A stretch of 24,435 nt of DNA from Deltaproteobacteria bacterium RBG_13_61_14. Its GTDB lineage: Bacteria > RBG-13-61-14. The notes below the pieces were generated by a model. The model was given only the letters and a program-made list of their open reading frames with translations. It was not told where the DNA came from and ran no database searches. Of the stretch, positions 1,968 to 23,690 are shown piece after piece; position 1 is the first letter of the stretch, and the number at the start of each line of letters is the position of its first letter. Made by a program: the position numbers and the translations under genes. Where the stretch lies: contig MGQK01000016.1 of NCBI GenBank assembly GCA_001797815.1, forward strand, positions 36,359-60,793, given 5' to 3'.

Positions 1968-3578
1968 ATGATTAAAAAAATCATGCTGACCGGAGCTATG
2001 GGCCTTATTCTATTCGCGAGTTTTGCGGCAAGGGCCGAGTTTCCATGCTCTGACCCGGTCCCCACCCGATCCGGCCCGGTGCAAGGGGCGCAAGATTCCA
2101 ACAACCCCGCGGCTTGCGCCTGGAAAGGCATCCCCTTTGCCGCGCCCCCAGTGGGCGAACTCCGTTGGCAGCCGCCGCAGCCTGTCTTGCCTTGGTCCGG
2201 TGCGCGCCGGGCGGACAAGTTCGGCGACCGCTGTATGCAAAAGGGAATTATGGCGCTGGAAGGCGTCATGTCCGAGGCGGGGATGAGCGAGGACTGCCTC
2301 TACCTGAACGTCTGGCGGCCGAAGAAAGAAGGCACCTTCCCGGTCATGGTCTGGATTCACGGCGGCGGCTATTACGGCGGCGCGGCCTCCACGGCCTTTT
2401 ACTGGGGCGACCGGCTGGCCGTGGCCGGGGACCTGGTGGTGGTGAGCACCAACTACCGGCTGAACGTGTTCGGGTTCTTCGCTCACCCGGCGCTGCGGGA
2501 GGAGGACCCGCACCGCTCTTCGGGCAGCCAGGGCACGCTCGATCAGGTCGCGGCTTTGCAATGGGTGCAGGACAACATCCACAATTTCGGCGGCGATCCG
2601 AACAACGTCACCATCTTCGGCGAGTCGGCCGGGGGCTGGAGCATTTGCACCATGGTGGCCACGCCCCTGGCCCAGGGCCTGTTCAAAGGCGCCATCCTGG
2701 AGAGCGGCGGCTGCAAGCAGAGCCAGGATCTGGAAAAGGGTTATGCGACGGCCAGGAAAATCTCGGAGAATCTCGACTGCCCGGCCGGGGACCTGGAATG
2801 CCTGCGCCGGCTTCCGGCCGAGAAAGTCCTGAAAAAGGGGTTTGCCGGCGGCATGGGCAACCTGGAGTTCATGCCCCATCACGATGGTTACGCGCTTTTC
2901 GACACGCCGCTGGCCATGATCCGGTCCGGCAATTACAACCACGCGGCCTTCATGGCCGGCTCGACCCGCGACGAGTTCGGCAAGGCCCTGAAGCTCCGGC
3001 GCGACGTCAAGAAGATCAAGCCGGAAGACTACGAGCGGCAGTTGGTCGAGCGGTTCGAGTTTTCGCCCGAAGAAGCGAAAACCCTGGTGCAGCTCTACCC
3101 GCTGGATCAGTTCGGCAACCGGCCGGTCGAGGCTTACGGCCGGATGTTCGGGGCGGACATGGCCCTGGCCTGCCCTACCTACGCGGGCCTGCTGGCCGCG
3201 GCGGAGCGGCAATCCGGCACTTATTATTACCGTTTCGACTACCTCGGGATGAAATACAGCCAATACACGGGCGCGGCGCACGCCTTCGAGATCCCATTCA
3301 TTTTTGATTCCCTGGACCGGCCGCCGACCAGCCTGTTCTACAACCGGCACAACCTGGGAGAGGCCAAGGCCCTGTCCCGGATCATCCAGGGCTACTGGAT
3401 CAACTTTGCCAAGACCGGCAACCCGAACGGAACGGGCCTGCCGGAATGGCCGGAGTTCGATCCCGAGCGGCAGAGGGTTCAGATTCTGAACACCGACACT
3501 CACGCGGAGCCGGCCGACATCTCTCCCCGCTGCTCCTTTTGGGAAGAGCATAGCAAGGAGATTGATCTGGGTTTCTAA
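1968..3578 (+). CDS. Secreted type-B carboxylesterase/lipase
   Basis: A 536-residue alpha/beta hydrolase of the carboxylesterase type B (cholinesterase-like) family, which cleaves carboxylic esters. A Sec signal peptide covers about residues 1-23 (basic MIKK, hydrophobic core, cleavage near ARA/E). Family landmarks are in order: SEDCLYLNV at 107-115, the oxyanion-hole HGGGY at 131-135, the nucleophile elbow GESAG at 218-222 (Ser220), the acid region GSTRDEF with Glu336, and the catalytic His438 in AAHAFEIPFIF. All three catalytic residues are therefore present. The ATG at 1968 was chosen because AAGGAG (1953-1958) sits 9 nt upstream and the signal peptide begins there. The stop codon TAA (3576-3578) lies in the left terminus of an adjacent palindromic repeat, so the natural C-terminus may have been altered by repeat insertion. 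The physiological substrate is unknown. Confidence 0.92.
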   Translation: MIKKIMLTGAMGLILFASFAARAEFPCSDPVPTRSGPVQGAQDSNNPAACAWKGIPFAAPPVGELRWQPPQPVLPWSGARRADKFGDRCMQKGIMALEGVMSEAGMSEDCLYLNVWRPKKEGTFPVMVWIHGGGYYGGAASTAFYWGDRLAVAGDLVVVSTNYRLNVFGFFAHPALREEDPHRSSGSQGTLDQVAALQWVQDNIHNFGGDPNNVTIFGESAGGWSICTMVATPLAQGLFKGAILESGGCKQSQDLEKGYATARKISENLDCPAGDLECLRRLPAEKVLKKGFAGGMGNLEFMPHHDGYALFDTPLAMIRSGNYNHAAFMAGSTRDEFGKALKLRRDVKKIKPEDYERQLVERFEFSPEEAKTLVQLYPLDQFGNRPVEAYGRMFGADMALACPTYAGLLAAAERQSGTYYYRFDYLGMKYSQYTGAAHAFEIPFIFDSLDRPPTSLFYNRHNLGEAKALSRIIQGYWINFAKTGNPNGTGLPEWPEFDPERQRVQILNTDTHAEPADISPRCSFWEEHSKEIDLGF

Positions 3579-3720
3579 GTGCAGGGTTTCATAAATGGTG
3601 TTCCATATTATTGTCTGGACCCAAATCATCGGCCGCGGGTAGGGGCGGTTCGCGAACCGCCCCTACCCGCCCCTGACGTAATCTCGATACGTCATCGAAT
3701 TTATGAAACCCTGCACTAAG
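3575..3720. repeat. Palindromic MITE-like element A (nested inverted repeat)
   Basis: Perfect 19-bp inverted arms AGTGCAGGGTTTCATAAAT occur at 3578-3596 and, reversed, at 3699-3717. They are flanked by CTAAG (3575-3579) and CTAAG (3716-3720). The interior holds a separate perfect palindrome (3635-3670). The right end (3691-3720, GTCATCG...GCACTAAG) is one of several related 30-bp ends in this cluster. No transposase is encoded, so any mobility would have to be supplied in trans. Confidence 0.8.
3635..3670. repeat. 36-bp perfect palindrome with GTAGGGGC core
   Basis: GCGGGTAGGGGCGGTTCG is followed directly by its reverse complement, giving a perfect 36-bp palindrome in the middle of element A. 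A related GTAGGGGC...GCCCCTAC palindrome lies inside the inverted repeat at 14072-14213, so this core appears to be a repeat family of its own. Confidence 0.85.
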
Positions 3721-3910
3721 TGGACTATTTCATAAATATCATTACGTATTCTTGATCTTCATGTCAGTCCTGGGATACCGAAAGGCTACCCCCCTCTCCT
3801 TATCCTCTCCCCCGCTGGGGGGAGAGGGGAGGGTGAGGGGGAGCTTGATGGGGCAAGGCGGGAGCGAGCAGTGAAAATACGTCATCGAAATTATGAACTG
3901 AAGCACTAAG
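3716..3910. repeat. MITE-like element B with CT-rich hairpin core
   Basis: The left end (from 3721, TGGACTATTTCATAAAT...ACGTATT) is an imperfect inverted copy of the right end, GTCATCG...GCACTAAG at 3881-3910, with about 20 of 30 positions pairing. A strong inner hairpin lies between the ends: CCTCTCCCCC (3804-3813) pairs with GGGGGAGAGG (3818-3827), within a longer CT/GA-rich inverted repeat spanning about 3789-3840. No coding capacity is apparent. Confidence 0.7.
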
Positions 3911-3968
3911 GCTCCCGGAACGGGAAAGGTCAATTTTGAACGTCGGATTCCGCCGGAACTTTGCGGGG

Positions 3969-4091
3969 CTAAGTCCTTCGATTCATAAGTTCGATGACGA
4001 ACTTATTTACTCAGGACTTAGTGCTGAGTGAGCAAACTCATCGAGCAAGCAGAAATGATATGTCATCGTATTTGCGAATCGAAGCACTAAG
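3969..4091. repeat. MITE-like element C and compact hairpin
   Basis: The 30-bp stretch 3969-3998 (CTAAGTCC...CGATGAC) is the inverted counterpart of 4062-4091 (GTCATCG...GCACTAAG). Within it, 3969-4021 folds on itself: CTAAGTCC (3969-3976) pairs with GGACTTAG (4014-4021), and ATAAGTTCG (3985-3993) pairs with CGAACTTAT (3998-4006) around a 4-nt loop. The next gene starts only 7 bp after this element. The bases between elements B and C (3911-3968) hold no recognised feature. Confidence 0.7.
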
Positions 4092-7127: not shown

Positions 7128-7557
7128 ATTTTTGATTTTAGATTACCAATTAAGACCGATCATTTCCGAGCTCTTAGAGTTTTTATCGAAGCGACCGTCA
7201 TGGCCAGGATCTCATTGGTTTCAGTCATGAGATCTTCTAACCTCTTGGCGGGTAAGATTGCACCTTCCACCAGCAGCTCCAACCAATAAAGAGTTTCGTC
7301 CGCCTCTTCTTCTACAAACCCGAGCTTGGCAATAACGTCCGCCCGGGATCTTCCTCGACAGGCCGCGCGGTAGTTGGCTCCGACAGAAGTGGCCGAGCGC
7401 AATATCTGGGCGCCGATTACTCCTGCCATGCGATTTTTAGGCAAGGCATTGACCAGCCGGATCACTCTCAAACCAAGTTGCTTGGTCCTTTTCTTAAACA
7501 TCTGTTCGTTCACTGACTTGTCCTCCAATCTAAAATCTAAAATCCAAAATCTAAAAT
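7121..7557. mobile_element. Putative S23-gene cassette bracketed by inverted ATTTTAG heptamer arrays
   Basis: The left array (7121-7144) reads ATTTTAG-ATTTTTG-ATTTTAG-ATT. The right array (7527-7557), on the opposite strand, reads ATTTTAG-ATTTTGG-ATTTTAG-ATTTTAG-ATT. Over the first 24 nt the arms differ at one base. Between them is a single minus-strand four-helix-bundle gene. Both outside neighbours terminate at the TAG of the outermost heptamer, which suggests the cassette was inserted into, or replaced, the 3' ends of existing genes. There is no transposase. 'Mobile' is an inference from this architecture. Confidence 0.5.
7160..7513 (-). CDS. Four-helix-bundle protein (23S rRNA intervening-sequence / S23 family)
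   Basis: A 117-residue protein of the S23/IVS-encoded four-helix-bundle family, also related to the Avd accessory proteins of diversity-generating retroelements. Family hallmarks are an N-terminal FKKRTKQLGLRVIRLVNALP helix, LRSATSVGANYRAACRGRS in the second helix, and VEEEADETLYWLELLVEG followed by NEILAMTVASIKTLR. The GTG at 7513 is chosen as start because the family usually begins at this NEQ-FKKRTK position and TCCTCC (7521-7526; GGAGGA on the coding strand) lies 7 nt upstream. Reading further upstream would translate the heptamer repeat into FRFWILDFRL, which is unlikely to be real. No retroelement RT or rRNA operon is nearby. The molecular function of free-standing members is unknown; they are basic and presumably bind nucleic acid. 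Confidence 0.85.
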   Translation of the reverse strand: MNEQMFKKRTKQLGLRVIRLVNALPKNRMAGVIGAQILRSATSVGANYRAACRGRSRADVIAKLGFVEEEADETLYWLELLVEGAILPAKRLEDLMTETNEILAMTVASIKTLRARK

Positions 7558-8738
7558 TCCCCCCTTGCTCCCGGGATCGGATATCGGCCATACTCCCGCG
7601 CCGCTCGCAGCATGGCCAGGAAGTTTTTGGTCTTGACCCCGGAGTGGATCGAATTGGAGCTGGACAGGATAAAACCTCCGCCCGGCGCGCAGCCCTGGAT
7701 CAGCCTCTTGACCGCATCCTCCACTTCCCCGGGCTCTCCCTGGCTGAGCAGCCGGCCGCAGTCCACGTTGCCGAGCAGGACCAGCCGATCGCCGTGGGAT
7801 TTCTTGAGTGCGAAGATGTCCATCCCGGCCGCCGGCTCGATGGCGTGATAACCGTCAAAGCCGCACTCGGAGAGGAAAGCCTTGCCCAGGGCAATGATGT
7901 TTCCGTCGGTGTGCTTGAAAAAAGGCCGGCCGTGCCTATGGCACAACTCCGTGATCTCGCGCAACCGGGGCGCGAAAAAGCGGCGGAACATTTTGGGCGA
8001 GAAATACGGACCCTGGGTCCCGGCGAAATCGGTGCCGCCGATAAAGCCGTGAAAGCCGGCCTCAATCTGCGCCCGAAGCAGGTTGAGCACGGTGCGATTG
8101 GCTGCGACCAGGTAGCGCTCGACCAGTTCGGGTTCCAGGACCATGGCTTCGAGGAAGACCTGGAACCAGGAGGTATGGTTGGGCATGATCACATCGGCCA
8201 GGCCCAGGAGGAACCGGTGCTGATAAGGCTGGAACATGGCTTTGAGCGTCTGGATGAGAGCGGCCGGCAATTGCAAAGCGCCATGGCGCTCCAGGTGCTC
8301 GACGTGCCGGCGGAAGCCTTCCAGCCCCTGCTGCCGGATGGAGCAGTCCTTCTCGCCCGAGGTATCGGCCTCCAGGTCCACTTTGATGATCCGCCAGGAG
8401 CCATCGGAGTGATCGGTGATCCTGTAGGTCAACGGTTCAATTTCCTGAAAATCGGCATCTTCGTAATAAATGGGAGGCAAGGGGACAACATCCAGGTCGA
8501 GTTGCTCATAAAGCTCAAGGTGATCCTTGATGCCTTTCAGGGTGAGCTCGGCCAGGCCCCCGGGCCGATGGGCATAATCGCAGCGGACCGGGCCCAGGAT
8601 CCGACCGCCGCCCCCGACCAGCATCTCCCGGCCCATGATCTCCGAGGCCACCGGCGCGTTGATGAGAAGCTCGAAGACCGGCACCCGGTCCGGCTCGCGG
8701 TGGGCGATGGCGGCGCCTACTCTCTCCTTGGAATTCAT
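7551..8738 (-). CDS. Uroporphyrinogen decarboxylase-fold protein (MtaA/CmuA-like methyltransferase family)
   Basis: A 395-residue TIM-barrel protein of the UROD superfamily. The N-terminus AHREPDRVPVFEL (about 12-24) is the family entry motif. Further on are GTDFAGTQGPYFSP, FFKHTDGN, LLGNVDCG and GGGFILSSSNSIHSG, which match UROD-like methylcobamide methyltransferases better than HemE. The Zn-type H-x-C...C signature of MtaA/MtbA is not intact: the histidine is followed by HTDG rather than HxC, so catalysis may differ. It lies 1 bp behind the SGNH gene (stop 8740, start 8738) and is surely co-transcribed with it. Its stop TAG (7551-7553) is provided by the heptamer array. The first about 75 nt are closely repeated in the fragment at 10998-11162. 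It could be a corrinoid-dependent methyltransferase or an unrelated enzyme on this fold; no corrinoid protein gene is adjacent. Confidence 0.85.
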   Translation of the reverse strand: MNSKERVGAAIAHREPDRVPVFELLINAPVASEIMGREMLVGGGGRILGPVRCDYAHRPGGLAELTLKGIKDHLELYEQLDLDVVPLPPIYYEDADFQEIEPLTYRITDHSDGSWRIIKVDLEADTSGEKDCSIRQQGLEGFRRHVEHLERHGALQLPAALIQTLKAMFQPYQHRFLLGLADVIMPNHTSWFQVFLEAMVLEPELVERYLVAANRTVLNLLRAQIEAGFHGFIGGTDFAGTQGPYFSPKMFRRFFAPRLREITELCHRHGRPFFKHTDGNIIALGKAFLSECGFDGYHAIEPAAGMDIFALKKSHGDRLVLLGNVDCGRLLSQGEPGEVEDAVKRLIQGCAPGGGFILSSSNSIHSGVKTKNFLAMLRAAREYGRYPIPGARGEF

Positions 8739-8739
8739 C

Positions 8740-11001
8740 TCATTCCGCTGAAGCTCCCGCCTGCCAAGGGATGGCCTCGATTCGGGTCAGCATCACTTCG
8801 ACCAGACCCTCAGTCGGGTCCAGCCGAATTGCCTCAACCTCATCACTCAGAATCCAATCCGGGTCATCCGCGAGATCAAACCGGTAATCGCTCGGGGTTG
8901 CGCCCGCCTCAGGCGCGACACAAGATTTGCGCTCTTCTGAAAAGCGGCCGGACCGGCGGTCCTGCCAATACAGACATACCTTTCCCAGAAGCGGCGAGCG
9001 GAGGGGGGTGATTTCGAGGCGCACCCGAACTTCCGCGATCAAAGCGGCTGGAAGCGAGAGCCCGGCGAAGACGAAGTATGGATCCGGCCCCAGGCTTAGA
9101 AAAGTAGTATCCCCGCGCGGCTCCAAATTGTGGCGTTGCGGCCCCGACTGGTCTCGGCTCGGGTCGAAGATCACCACTGGTTTCCCCGCGGAAAGGCCGG
9201 ACGGCCGAAATCGGAAGCGCAACGCGATCCGGCTCTTGACGTCGTCCGTGATTTCCGTGAGAGAACGAGTTTCGGATTTCCAGTAATAGATACGATCCGA
9301 CCGATCCAAGGAAAGAGGGGAGACCGGTTTCTTGGGTCCCTTTCCAGCGGCGGCCAAGTAAATGTCCAGAACCGGCAAAAAACTGGTCCCCGGCTTCGCC
9401 TGGACCCACAAGTAGGGATCGCGCCAACGGAGAAAGGAATGGAGATAAAACTTCTCCATCCGGCCCACGTGCTCAGGGCTTCGACGCAGAGCCGCAGCGA
9501 AAGCTGATTGACCCGCCTCGGCCTGATCCTGGCGCAGCCGAAGCAAACCCACCAGCAGATCCGGCAGCGTAGATTCCGGGACCAGACCTTGAAGCCGGCC
9601 GAGAAGCCGGACAGCCTGCTCATTGATCTGGCGATCGTCGAACTGAAAGGCGAGACAGAAAGCCATTCCCTGGATTCTTTCAGCCAGAAATTCCGGGGTA
9701 ACCTTCATGCGGTCGAGCCAATCGGACTGACGGGCGATCAGATCCTCCGCAGCGACCGGCTCGAACCGGTCAGGATGATCGGCCGCAATAGCCGCGGCCA
9801 ACTCCGCGGCGATCAAAACCTGCCCCTCAAGAGTCGGATGGCACATGTCGTCCATCAACTCGAATCCGGTCATCCCTTGCGGACTTCGCTCATCGAAGAC
9901 GCGGGCCAGATCCAACATGGGAACCCCCTCCTGCGCCGCCAGGCGAAGGAGCGCCAGGTTCTGATAAGAGGGGGCGCGGAACAAGCGCGAATCATTCAAG
10001 TCCAGTGCCTCCAGAAAGTGAGTCCGCGCGGCCGCGGCGTTGCCCGTCGCCAACTCCTCTTTCGCCTCCAAGAAATGGCCTCGGGCATGCTCCGGGTCCC
10101 GGACCATGATCGCCGCGATCAGTCGTGCGGATTCGCGGTGCCGACCTGCCTGCAAGGCTTCCTCCGCTTGGCGGGCGAGGTCTTCCAGCTCCACGCGCCG
10201 GTTCAGGGGCATGGAGTCGGGGTATCGGGATTTTTGCGGCGGCCATTCGCGCCAGTTTACAGCCACGGTGCAGAGTCTTACCGGCACTTTCCGAGTCCGA
10301 GCCGCGCGAATCATGGTCTCCATATTCAGCAGAAAATTTTTCTGAATCGCCTCCCTTCTGGCCGCCGGAAACTTATTAACCTGAAGCACCAGATGTTCCT
10401 TCTGGGCCCAAGCGCTCATCGCGCCGCCGACCTTGGCCCTGGTGATCCGGACCAGATGCCGGGCGGCGCGGAAAACGGCGCTGTGTTGCTCCAGAAACTT
10501 GAGGATCGGAAAAATGAATGGGGTCTCGGCAGGATTGACGGGCTTGTAGAATGCCAATTCATTGTTGCCGCAGTAAATCACCATCTCGTCCGGATCGAGT
10601 TCAAGGGCGGCCTCAAAGAAATCATTGACCGTGGTGCTGTTGATGCCCCTGGTCCCGCAGTTGATCACCTCCACGCTTCCGTGCCGGGCATGGGTAAGCA
10701 GCATCTCCTGGAGCAGCTTGGGAAAAGTGGATTGGGGATTATAAATGGCCCCCATGGTGGCGGACTCGCCGAAGCAAAAAATCCGGTAGGTATCCGGGGG
10801 TTTAGGAACCTGAAATACTGGGGAGCCCTCGGCGTGGGCAAAACGCCATCGGCCCTGGCCCAACGGCTCAAAGATCCATCCCATGTGCGAGGTCAAGGGC
10901 GCAACCCGGAGGATTCCCTCGGCTCCAGCGATTACCACAAACATGACCACAGCGGAAAATACCACCCGCTTGAGAATCGAATCTGAACCAGTTCTCATCA
11001 T
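8740..11001 (-). CDS. Membrane-anchored SGNH/GDSL-like hydrolase with TPR region
   Basis: A 753-residue protein with one N-terminal transmembrane helix (about 12-30), placing the rest outside the cytoplasm. SGNH landmarks are block I FCFGESATMG (75-84, presumed nucleophile Ser80, with Glu in place of the usual Asp of GDS), block II INCGTRGINS (113-122), block III YCGNNE (143-148) and block V DDMCHPTLEG with the expected Asp/His pair. Between blocks III and V is an insert of amphipathic helix pairs (about 275-350, for example EEALQAGRHRESARLIAA and AKEELATGNAAAARTHFLEAL) that reads as TPR repeats. The C-terminal about 250 residues look like a beta-rich domain of unknown type. The family includes esterases and polysaccharide O-acetyl hydrolases or transferases; the substrate is unknown. 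Its ATG overlaps the stop of the upstream UROD fragment (ATGA), indicating translational coupling. Confidence 0.82.
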   Translation of the reverse strand: MMRTGSDSILKRVVFSAVVMFVVIAGAEGILRVAPLTSHMGWIFEPLGQGRWRFAHAEGSPVFQVPKPPDTYRIFCFGESATMGAIYNPQSTFPKLLQEMLLTHARHGSVEVINCGTRGINSTTVNDFFEAALELDPDEMVIYCGNNELAFYKPVNPAETPFIFPILKFLEQHSAVFRAARHLVRITRAKVGGAMSAWAQKEHLVLQVNKFPAARREAIQKNFLLNMETMIRAARTRKVPVRLCTVAVNWREWPPQKSRYPDSMPLNRRVELEDLARQAEEALQAGRHRESARLIAAIMVRDPEHARGHFLEAKEELATGNAAAARTHFLEALDLNDSRLFRAPSYQNLALLRLAAQEGVPMLDLARVFDERSPQGMTGFELMDDMCHPTLEGQVLIAAELAAAIAADHPDRFEPVAAEDLIARQSDWLDRMKVTPEFLAERIQGMAFCLAFQFDDRQINEQAVRLLGRLQGLVPESTLPDLLVGLLRLRQDQAEAGQSAFAAALRRSPEHVGRMEKFYLHSFLRWRDPYLWVQAKPGTSFLPVLDIYLAAAGKGPKKPVSPLSLDRSDRIYYWKSETRSLTEITDDVKSRIALRFRFRPSGLSAGKPVVIFDPSRDQSGPQRHNLEPRGDTTFLSLGPDPYFVFAGLSLPAALIAEVRVRLEITPLRSPLLGKVCLYWQDRRSGRFSEERKSCVAPEAGATPSDYRFDLADDPDWILSDEVEAIRLDPTEGLVEVMLTRIEAIPWQAGASAE

Positions 11002-11162
11002 GAGTTCAACCGGGGCAGGCGGCCACCAATACCAACCATCATGTCCAGGCCCATGATCTCCGAGGCCACCGGCGCGTTGATGAAAAGCTCGAAGACCGGC
11101 ACCCGGTCCGGCTCTCGATGGGCCAGAGCCAGGCTGACCCGTTCCCTGGAGCTTGATCCCAT
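10998..11162 (-). pseudogene. Truncated UROD-family gene fragment (54 codons), coupled to the SGNH gene
   Basis: An ATG at 11162 opens a 54-codon ORF containing AHREPDRVPVFEL, INAPVASEIMG and MVGIGGR. It aligns with about the first 48 residues of the full-length UROD-family protein starting at 8738. At the DNA level, about 75 nt match with about three mismatches. After GGR the similarity ends, and six unrelated codons lead to a TGA (10998-11000) that overlaps the next ATG (10999-11001) as ATGA. The simplest reading is a second UROD-family gene with a large internal deletion, leaving a short leader-like ORF that now couples translation into the SGNH gene. A functional short peptide is not excluded. 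No strong Shine-Dalgarno is seen. Confidence 0.75.
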
Positions 11163-14071: not shown

Positions 14072-14213
14072 AGGTAACCCTTCAGTTATCAGTGGCAAAG
14101 CACATCGAAGAACCCCGTAGGGGCGCGGCTTGCCGCGCCCTTCCTGGGCAGGGCAAGCCCTGCCCCTACACGGCTCAATCGTGCGCCCGCCCCTGATAAC
14201 TGAAGGGTTACCT
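14072..14213. repeat. MITE-like inverted repeat with nested GTAGGGGC core (element D)
   Basis: 21-bp perfect inverted arms lie at 14072-14092 (AGGTAACCC...ATCAG) and 14193-14213. Nested inside are GTAGGGGC (14117-14124) paired with GCCCCTAC (14162-14169), and two further hairpins: GGGCGCGG/CCGCGCCC (14121-14128 with 14133-14140) and GGGCAGGGC/GCCCTGCCC (14146-14154 with 14157-14165). The arms differ from those of element A, but the core type is shared. A T-run follows at 14219-14226, so the structure might also help terminate the peptidase transcript. Confidence 0.8.
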
Positions 14214-21433: not shown

Positions 21434-21592
21434 GTGTCCACAATAAAATAGGGGACACTCCTTGTTTGTGGTTTTTCTAATTTAACACTAATTTCACGTC
21501 GGTCATATAGTATTACCCAAGGGTGCCACTGGCTAAGCCCGGAGGGCTTGCCAGTGCATAGGCAATCCCTTCGGGATTGGCCCGTGGCACCC
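21434..21592. repeat. Intergenic hairpin cluster including a double-hairpin cruciform repeat
   Basis: GTGTCC (21434-21439) pairs with GGACAC (21453-21458). A larger structure at 21521-21592 is bounded by GGGTGCCAC and GTGGCACCC (21521-21529, 21584-21592). It contains two inner hairpins: ACTGGC-AAGCCC / GGGCTT-GCCAGT (21528-21555) and CAATCCC/GGGATTG (21563-21579). Outside it, TAATTTCACGTC near 21490 and GACGTAAAATTGG near 21611 form a weaker inverted pair. The 21421-21633 gap has no gene that I can support. Confidence 0.75.
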
Positions 21593-22583: not shown

Positions 22584-23690
22584 TTAGATAACACTCAACG
22601 GAAGAACTTCCTGGCAAACGCTTTCAGTTTCCATGCAGAGGTAGAGCCAAGCTTGGGGCGCGGCTTGGCGGATAGCGCCGGATATGCGGCGGAGGAGAGG
22701 TTGGCGGATGAAGCGGAGATAGCGGAGCTTGCCGTCGAGCCCGGTGATGAACTCTCCGAGCAAGATGCGGGAGTTGGAAAAGCGCTCGCGGACGATGGGG
22801 GCCAGCCGGGGGTTAAAGCGGAGCGCGCCCAGGCTGGTCCAGGCCACTTGCTCCGGGGCTACCGTTGCGAATATTTTGTTAACCACTTCTTCATAAGCCT
22901 CTCCCGCTCCCGGCTCATCCAGGATCGGGTCGAAATGGAATCCGACCTTATAGCCCCAGCCGGCTACTCTCTTGGCCGCCTGCAAGCGCGCCTCCAGCGT
23001 GGCCGCGCCCTGCTCTTCCCTTGCGATCATCTCCTCCGGGTTCACGGACCAGCTCACCACGGTTTTCCCCTGGTGGTCCAATCCCTCCAGGCATTCCACC
23101 CGGTCGCTCTTGGTCTTGAGCTCGAAGACCGCGCCTTCCTGCCCGGCAAAAAAGTTAATCAGCGCCGGGGCCAGGCCCAGCCAGGGTTCCAGGGCCAGGC
23201 TGTCGGAAAGCTCGCCGGTGCCGATACGAAAGGGCAGGTCAGGGCACGAATCCAAGCCTCCTCCGCCGAAGTAGCTTCGGCTACGAAGGCTGGATCGTGC
23301 CCTACGATTAGTGAGATAATCGGAAACCTCGGACAACATATCCTCCCAGTTGAGGCGCACGGTGATGGGCGAAGGGCCCAGGTATTCCTGGAGCACGCAA
23401 TAGGAGCAGTCAAAGGGACAGCCGAGCACCGGGTTGAGGATCCAGTAGCCGCAGTTGATGTGGCTCTGGGTGCAGGGGCAGGGTTTCAGAAACTCGCCTG
23501 AATAAACATCGAGCAAAAGCGTGCGCTTGCCCTGGCCGATCGGGTCCGGATAATTTCTTTTCAGCCAGTCTTGCACTTCGGGGATACCGGAGACTTTCTC
23601 GACCGGAAGATCGGGCCACCCCGCCAGCAAATGTTGGGCGCGCGCATGCCGCTCGGCTTCAGGGGTTATCAAGACACGCTCGAAGTTCAT
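22584..23690 (-). CDS. SPL-family radical SAM protein (spore photoproduct lyase-like)
   Basis: A 368-residue radical SAM enzyme. The cluster-binding motif CPFDCSYCVLQ (91-101: Cys91, Cys95, Cys98) follows an upstream cysteine-rich segment KPCPCTQSHINCGYW (70-83). Further SPL-like landmarks are FRIGTGELSDSLALE, VFELKTKSD, VSWSVNPEEM and VGFHFDPIL. Spore photoproduct lyase repairs thymine dimers in spores; relatives in non-spore-formers are a separate clade of unknown substrate, so 'photoproduct lyase' should not be asserted. Residues 130-150 (RARSS...DSCP) are encoded by a 63-nt palindromic repeat inserted in frame just before the FRIGTGE motif. The gene starts 1 nt after the stop of the upstream helical ORF and lacks a strong Shine-Dalgarno, so it is probably translationally coupled. 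Confidence 0.88.
   Translation of the reverse strand: MNFERVLITPEAERHARAQHLLAGWPDLPVEKVSGIPEVQDWLKRNYPDPIGQGKRTLLLDVYSGEFLKPCPCTQSHINCGYWILNPVLGCPFDCSYCVLQEYLGPSPITVRLNWEDMLSEVSDYLTNRRARSSLRSRSYFGGGGLDSCPDLPFRIGTGELSDSLALEPWLGLAPALINFFAGQEGAVFELKTKSDRVECLEGLDHQGKTVVSWSVNPEEMIAREEQGAATLEARLQAAKRVAGWGYKVGFHFDPILDEPGAGEAYEEVVNKIFATVAPEQVAWTSLGALRFNPRLAPIVRERFSNSRILLGEFITGLDGKLRYLRFIRQPLLRRISGAIRQAAPQAWLYLCMETESVCQEVLPLSVI
23241..23303. repeat. 63-nt palindromic repeat inserted in frame within the radical SAM gene
   Basis: The ends AGGGCACGA (23241-23249) and TCGTGCCCT (23295-23303) are perfect inverted repeats. Inward, TCCAAGCCT and AGGCTGGA continue the pairing with one bulged base, and GCCGAAG/CTTCGGC forms the tip region (23265-23280). 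Its length is exactly 21 codons and all three stop-free boundaries preserve the host reading frame. Confidence 0.75.

Follow-up and report, generated by a model that had tools for sequence, protein, structure and literature searches.

A translated palindrome in a spore photoproduct lyase-family gene is probably a nested pair of small mobile hairpins

How does a gene for a radical SAM enzyme come to carry, in frame, a DNA palindrome that is missing from its relatives? Within the window (the whole stretch of 24,435 nucleotides that was analysed), the gene at positions 22584-23690 of the minus strand encodes a 368-residue protein of the spore photoproduct lyase (SPL) family (Pfam SPL, E 8e-21; NCBIfam matches fall below the equivalog cut-offs), with its CxxxCxxC and GTGE motifs intact. 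A first-pass annotation had described a 63-nt palindrome inside this gene, and the letters at 23241-23303 (AGGGCACGAATCCAAGCCTCC...GGCTGGATCGTGCCCT) confirmed that it is real and near-perfect. Folded as single-stranded DNA the region reached -23.2 kcal/mol, compared with a mean of -11.6 kcal/mol for shuffled sequences (z -5.0; 0 of 200 shuffles matched it). As annotated, the palindrome corresponds to codons 130-150, which run from 23303 down to 23241, encode RARSSLRSRSYFGGGGLDSCP and are followed by DLP-FRIGTGE.

Residues 130-150 were absent from all 22 of the 22 homologs aligned (the closest 51-52% identical, from two genomes in the same order), leaving a clean 20-residue gap and bearing out the view that the stretch is an insertion. 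Because Pro150 (codon CCT) aligns with a proline of several homologs, the net gain is 60-63 nt. A search of genome contigs with peptide patterns confirmed no homologs of the SPL-family protein. No conserved motif of the enzyme is broken by the insert. The annotation had also placed an extra cysteine near the active-site region; this was not supported. The cysteine derives from an arm of the outer hairpin described below and lies between helix 1 and the FRIGTGE strand. In (beta/alpha) barrels the stretch between a helix and the next strand normally sits on the side opposite the active site, and a single-sequence structure model of poor quality (mean pLDDT 41) is compatible with a coil at this point. 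Most likely the protein tolerates the insert as a surface loop, and no new function comes with it.

The palindrome is not a product of chance, since the same genome (4.7 Mb, 132 contigs) holds a 93% identical copy at C126:8119-8174 and a diverged copy at C99:15355, both of them intergenic; with the SPL-family gene these make three occurrences of the core sequence. Both of the observations that the annotation had held against its own reading, homologs sharing the residues on non-palindromic DNA and a genome free of other copies, failed to appear.

The 63-nt palindrome is a composite of two elements. When an inner unit is removed from 23241-23303, the remaining sequence is AGGGCACGA|TTGGATTCGTGCCCT, a 24-nt hairpin of the form AGGGCACGA-TTGGAT-TCGTGCCCT. 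Its 5′ arm occupies 23295-23303 and its loop and 3′ arm occupy 23241-23255, while an adjoining GTAG tag, recognised by comparison with loci L006, L016 and L017, lies at its 5′ foot at 23302-23305 (all minus strand). Five contigs of this genome (C121, C53, C130, C70 and C55) carry GGGCACGATTGGATTCGTGCCC uninterrupted, and C44 has a near-identical sixth copy. GTAG, intact or degenerate, precedes several of these copies (elsewhere the tag is GTAG, GCAG or degenerate), and most lie near an inverted partner with an identical TTGGAT loop. As described by Di Nocera et al. 2013 (PMC3733652), GTAG REPs are short palindromes with GTAG at the stem foot, mostly intergenic and arranged as inverted dimers. 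The outer hairpin is alike in each respect: a short stem-loop has GTAG at its 5′ foot, and the element is dispersed, mostly intergenic and often found as inverted dimers (four in 765 kb of its own genome, more in the loci collected). Open frames running through these dimers look spurious.

The inner element is a 39-nt unit, TCCA followed by GCCTTCGTAGCC...GGAGGAGGC (in full TCCA-GCCTTCGTAGCCGAAGCTACTTCGGCGGAGGAGGC), at 23256-23294 on the minus strand. It lies between CGA and TTGGAT, exactly at the 5′ edge of the outer hairpin's loop, and supplies 13 codons that read SSLRSRSYFGGGG. Its ends were located with an empty-site test, in which the unit was removed, the flanks were joined and a match was sought to uninterrupted sequence elsewhere in the DNA collected. 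With the exact trim (four nucleotides, YYCR, to the left of the core and none to the right), 80 of 245 joined flanks matched existing uninterrupted sequence, such as CCCTCTCCCCCTTCTT|CAGGGGGAGAGGG, GCGAAGGGTCGCT|ACTTCGC, CCGAGCTTA|CGCTCGG and GTCATTCCCGCG|AAAGCGGGAATCC. Left trims of 0-3 or 5-8 nt, or a right trim shifted by 1-3 nt either way, gave only 0-4 matches, and a control with mismatched flanks gave 9. Because exact removal of YYCR plus core restores far more empty sites than any other trim tried, both ends of the unit are known to the base. Units are 38-43 nt long, mostly 39, and outside YYCR-GCCTTCGTAGCC...GGCGGAGTAGGC there is no conservation between copies. Consistent direct repeats were not found around unit copies; as read from these junctions, insertion makes no target duplication. 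Insertion of IS200/IS605 elements is also free of target duplication.

According to the empty-site test, the outer stem does not belong to the mobile unit, even though the composite is shared by C126 and 23241-23303. In the C126 copy, which stands beside an inverted partner, the unit occupies the same loop position of the outer hairpin, which leaves two routes, a jump of the entire composite or separate insertions at an identical position. The 21 residues divide accordingly between the two elements: the outer hairpin encodes RAR...LDSCP and the unit encodes SSLRSRSYFGGGG; at L016, where the outer hairpin is empty, one frame reads RARLDSCP. Since 24 and 39 nt are both divisible by three and no stop interrupts the reading frame, the SPL-family gene stays open; it would yield a protein with 21 extra residues, RAR-SSLRSRSYFGGGG-LDSCP.

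Comparison of copies pointed to two alternative folds of the unit. In hairpin A (23271-23284, minus strand; GTAGC-CGAA-GCTAC), GTAG and CTAC change jointly to GCAG and CTGC in other copies, one pair being TA in 113 and CG in 30 of 154 distinct cores. In hairpin B (23265-23281, minus strand; GCCGAAG-CTA-CTTCGGC), one free pair was AT in 54 and TA in 20 of 89 copies, and double changes filled 15 cells compared with 6.3 after shuffling, above all 500 shuffles. The two hairpins are mutually exclusive, with GTAG unpaired in B and paired with CTAC in A, and compensatory changes occur in both. A subfamily, ACCTGCGTAGCC...GGAGCAGGT, was seen at L312, L313, L318 and L420 (phylum of a Verrucomicrobia locus); there the outer stem of the unit changes from G-C to A-T and from T/T to G-C, in a compensating manner.

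About 250 unit copies, most of them intergenic, were examined from at least 12 phyla. Two relatives of the same phylum carry 3 and 13 copies, and a pattern scan of the genome collection returned at least 119 stretches, or at least 127 copies together with two viral contigs. Among the matches listed were Desulfobacterales, Armatimonadota, Nitrospira, Patescibacteria, Verrucomicrobia, Lentisphaerae, Phycisphaerae (Planctomycetes), Elusimicrobia, Flavobacteriaceae, Cloacimonadota, Neomarinimicrobiota, Omnitrophota, Rhodospirillales and others. When genomes were sampled with a covariance model, the phylum of a Patescibacteria locus had the unit in 10 of 379, that of a Verrucomicrobia locus in 10 of 387 and that of a Nitrospirales locus in 30 of 395. 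The 39-nt core had no match in the phage and plasmid collections, the two viral contigs apart. Unit-bearing genomes are mostly metagenome-assembled, and some single copies may be binning error; as a general explanation of the spread, this is countered by genomes that hold many copies with flanks peculiar to each genome. At L365, L367, L196 and L330, two or more unit-bearing composites stand roughly 80-170 nt apart, as if tandemly amplified.

The unit is also translated elsewhere. Six other convincing in-frame copies were found, in genes for Mfd, RecG, a staphylococcal-nuclease homolog, ComEC, a macro-domain protein and a TIGR00375 protein, the last from a family with a relationship to endonuclease Q. 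The Mfd copy falls within the RID domain, where 38 residues are unmatched between two E. coli-like parts; that in RecG follows the wedge domain, that in the nuclease homolog fills a 14-residue gap (42 nt) and that in ComEC lies in the N-terminal part. Two further candidates were left out: the exonuclease VII locus L280 because of a weak model match, and the sugar nucleotidyltransferase locus L318 because the profile match stops just before the insert. Most of the six host proteins act on DNA. This bias towards DNA-repair genes is a lead, the number being small and the genes having been classified after the fact. The same leaning was seen for other REPs in the 2013 survey, where GTAG REPs lie in frame inside genes, many for DNA repair and including a photoreactivating enzyme in Thauera (PMC3733652).

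The annotation's idea of a protein-coding mobile repeat outside Rickettsia is upheld by these further non-Rickettsia genes; the same survey reports in-frame REPs in other bacteria (PMC3733652), so that their occurrence outside Rickettsia is not new in principle. Its likening of the locus to Rickettsia palindromic elements (RPEs) survives in part. The unit behaves as RPEs do, being a mobile palindromic repeat translated in frame within unrelated protein genes, but the locus is not a single element: it is a host GTAG-type hairpin with a 39-nt unit in its loop. It also differs from RPEs in host range and in the nested composite of 39 and 24 nt seen here, and the likeness drawn here is one of behaviour.

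Insertion sites were not random. Perfect stems of at least 8 bp surrounded the junction at 10% of insertion sites compared with 0.3% of random sites, and stems of at least 6 bp at 17% compared with 1.7%; complementary flanks of at least 8 nt were present in 62 of 162 copies, compared with about 21 when flanks were mismatched. Joined sites often form hairpins that hold the junction in the loop, and the majority of sites are without a long perfect hairpin. The dinucleotide CT directly preceded the junction at 26-32% of sites, the background being 5.4%, and the excess held after de-duplication; the junction in the SPL-family gene is GA|TT, not CT|. Judged by where its copies lie, these comparisons show that the unit favours hairpin loops and sites 3′ of CT. 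RAYT enzymes reportedly cleave at CT (PMC8266576), and the shared preference is a suggestive pointer to a RAYT-like enzyme, not proof of one.

Taken together, the locus likely consists of two small, non-autonomous mobile hairpins, one nested in the other: a GTAG REP-type element and, in its loop, a REP-like unit that crosses phyla. The unit family is probably new, resembles GTAG-tagged REPs and is probably moved as single-stranded hairpins by an HUH enzyme. In the model that we propose, the unit would move as a folded single-stranded hairpin, and a Y1/HUH transposase akin to RAYT or IS200/IS605 enzymes would cut and join it in trans. Its internal GTAG/CTAC could serve as guide and target, by analogy to guide pairing in IS200/IS605 and RAYT systems (PMC8266576), and exposed hairpin loops on single-stranded DNA would be the preferred landing sites.

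The nearest competing account is a classical REPtron, in which the unit would be no more than a normal GTAG REP, mobilised by a cognate RAYT gene in its own genome. This would explain why the unit is short and mostly intergenic, has GTAG beside a palindrome and follows CT at the junction, and the genome offers 19 Y1_Tnp genes. However, most of these genes (L064-L082) are framed by GGGGTCAG...CTGACCCC, of TIR type as in TIRYT genes, and not by the unit; 49 Y1 loci of unit-bearing genomes had no unit copy nearby; and a Y1 gene was undetected in 4 of 14 such genomes. The extra flanking stem (GCC../..GGC), the YYCR leader and a GTAG able to pair also set the unit apart, and we regard a REPtron as unlikely, if credible. 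A second account dispenses with a transposase: hairpins would enter hairpin loops through template switching in replication or through repair. The missing cognate enzyme, the frequent hairpin-loop targets and the absence of target duplications fit this process, and no other gene family was found to recur beside unit copies. Yet base-exact ends across many unrelated targets and phyla, together with the CT preference, look enzymatic, and transposase-free copying seems improbable. It is more doubtful still that the composite serves as a structured regulatory RNA, or as something like a terminator, and has a coding position only by accident. Most copies are intergenic and the stem changes include G-U pairs, but an Rfam scan gave no family at the curated cut-off (only two sub-threshold miRNA look-alikes); the copies are scattered in unrelated hairpins and genes, the gene context is not constant and a conserved position relative to one gene class was not seen. 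That the 21 residues are a naturally selected loop of the protein lineage, with the palindrome incidental, accords with an intact, in-frame SPL-family gene but is scarcely believable when 22 of 22 homologs lack the residues and both component sequences are found again in non-coding DNA elsewhere in this genome.

Under the preferred reading of two nested mobile hairpins, the inner unit differs from GTAG REPs in several ways: its GTAG lies inside a larger palindrome and is alternatively paired with CTAC, it has a YYCR leader, it lodges in the loops of other hairpins and it spans many phyla. It may still coincide with one of the 24 published GTAG REP families (PMC3733652), whose general description served for this comparison. 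With IS200/IS605 and RAYT (TnpA-REP) systems it shares a hairpin with a putative tetranucleotide guide and, for RAYT, the CT at which those enzymes are reported to act (PMC8266576), but it is without an adjacent cognate transposase gene. The TIRYT-like Y1 elements of its own genome belong with the TIR-type Y1 elements that have GGGGWSAS ends (PMC3733652), and their ends are unrelated to either the unit or the outer hairpin. In the literature searched, the core sequence was not found; the single match, of one 13-letter piece, was to a paper on something unrelated. The family appears undescribed there, as do its exact ends, nesting, hairpin-loop targeting and phylum span. We would venture only tentatively that the unit represents a separate minimal class of mobile DNA, a cross-phylum hairpin of 39-43 nt that inserts, to the base and without duplication, into the loops of other palindromic repeats, through which genomes would build nested hairpins, and that enters DNA-repair genes in frame in excess of chance.

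The nesting reveals an origin for composite palindromes, translated ones included. The mobility of REPs has mostly been inferred and clear insertion events are scarce; here, 80 filled/empty matches fix both ends. A target rule of hairpin loops and sites 3′ of CT, combined with covarying GTAG/CTAC, makes a model of single-strand transposition directly testable.

Other repeats were noted in the window. An intergenic cluster of repeats and inverted repeats at 3575-4091 (TCATCGAA..GCACTAAG and CTAAGT..TTCATAAAT) belongs to another palindromic repeat family. A direct repeat of 119 nt, 84% identical between its copies, lies at 8614-8732, inside the start of the gene at 7551-8738, and at 11032-11150, just past the gene that closes a stretch at 11001. 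An intergenic 25-nt inverted repeat at 14072-14213 has arms 96% complementary and 92 nt apart, and an inverted repeat at 21521-21592, with 32-nt arms that are 84% complementary and smaller hairpins within, is possibly another nested palindrome.
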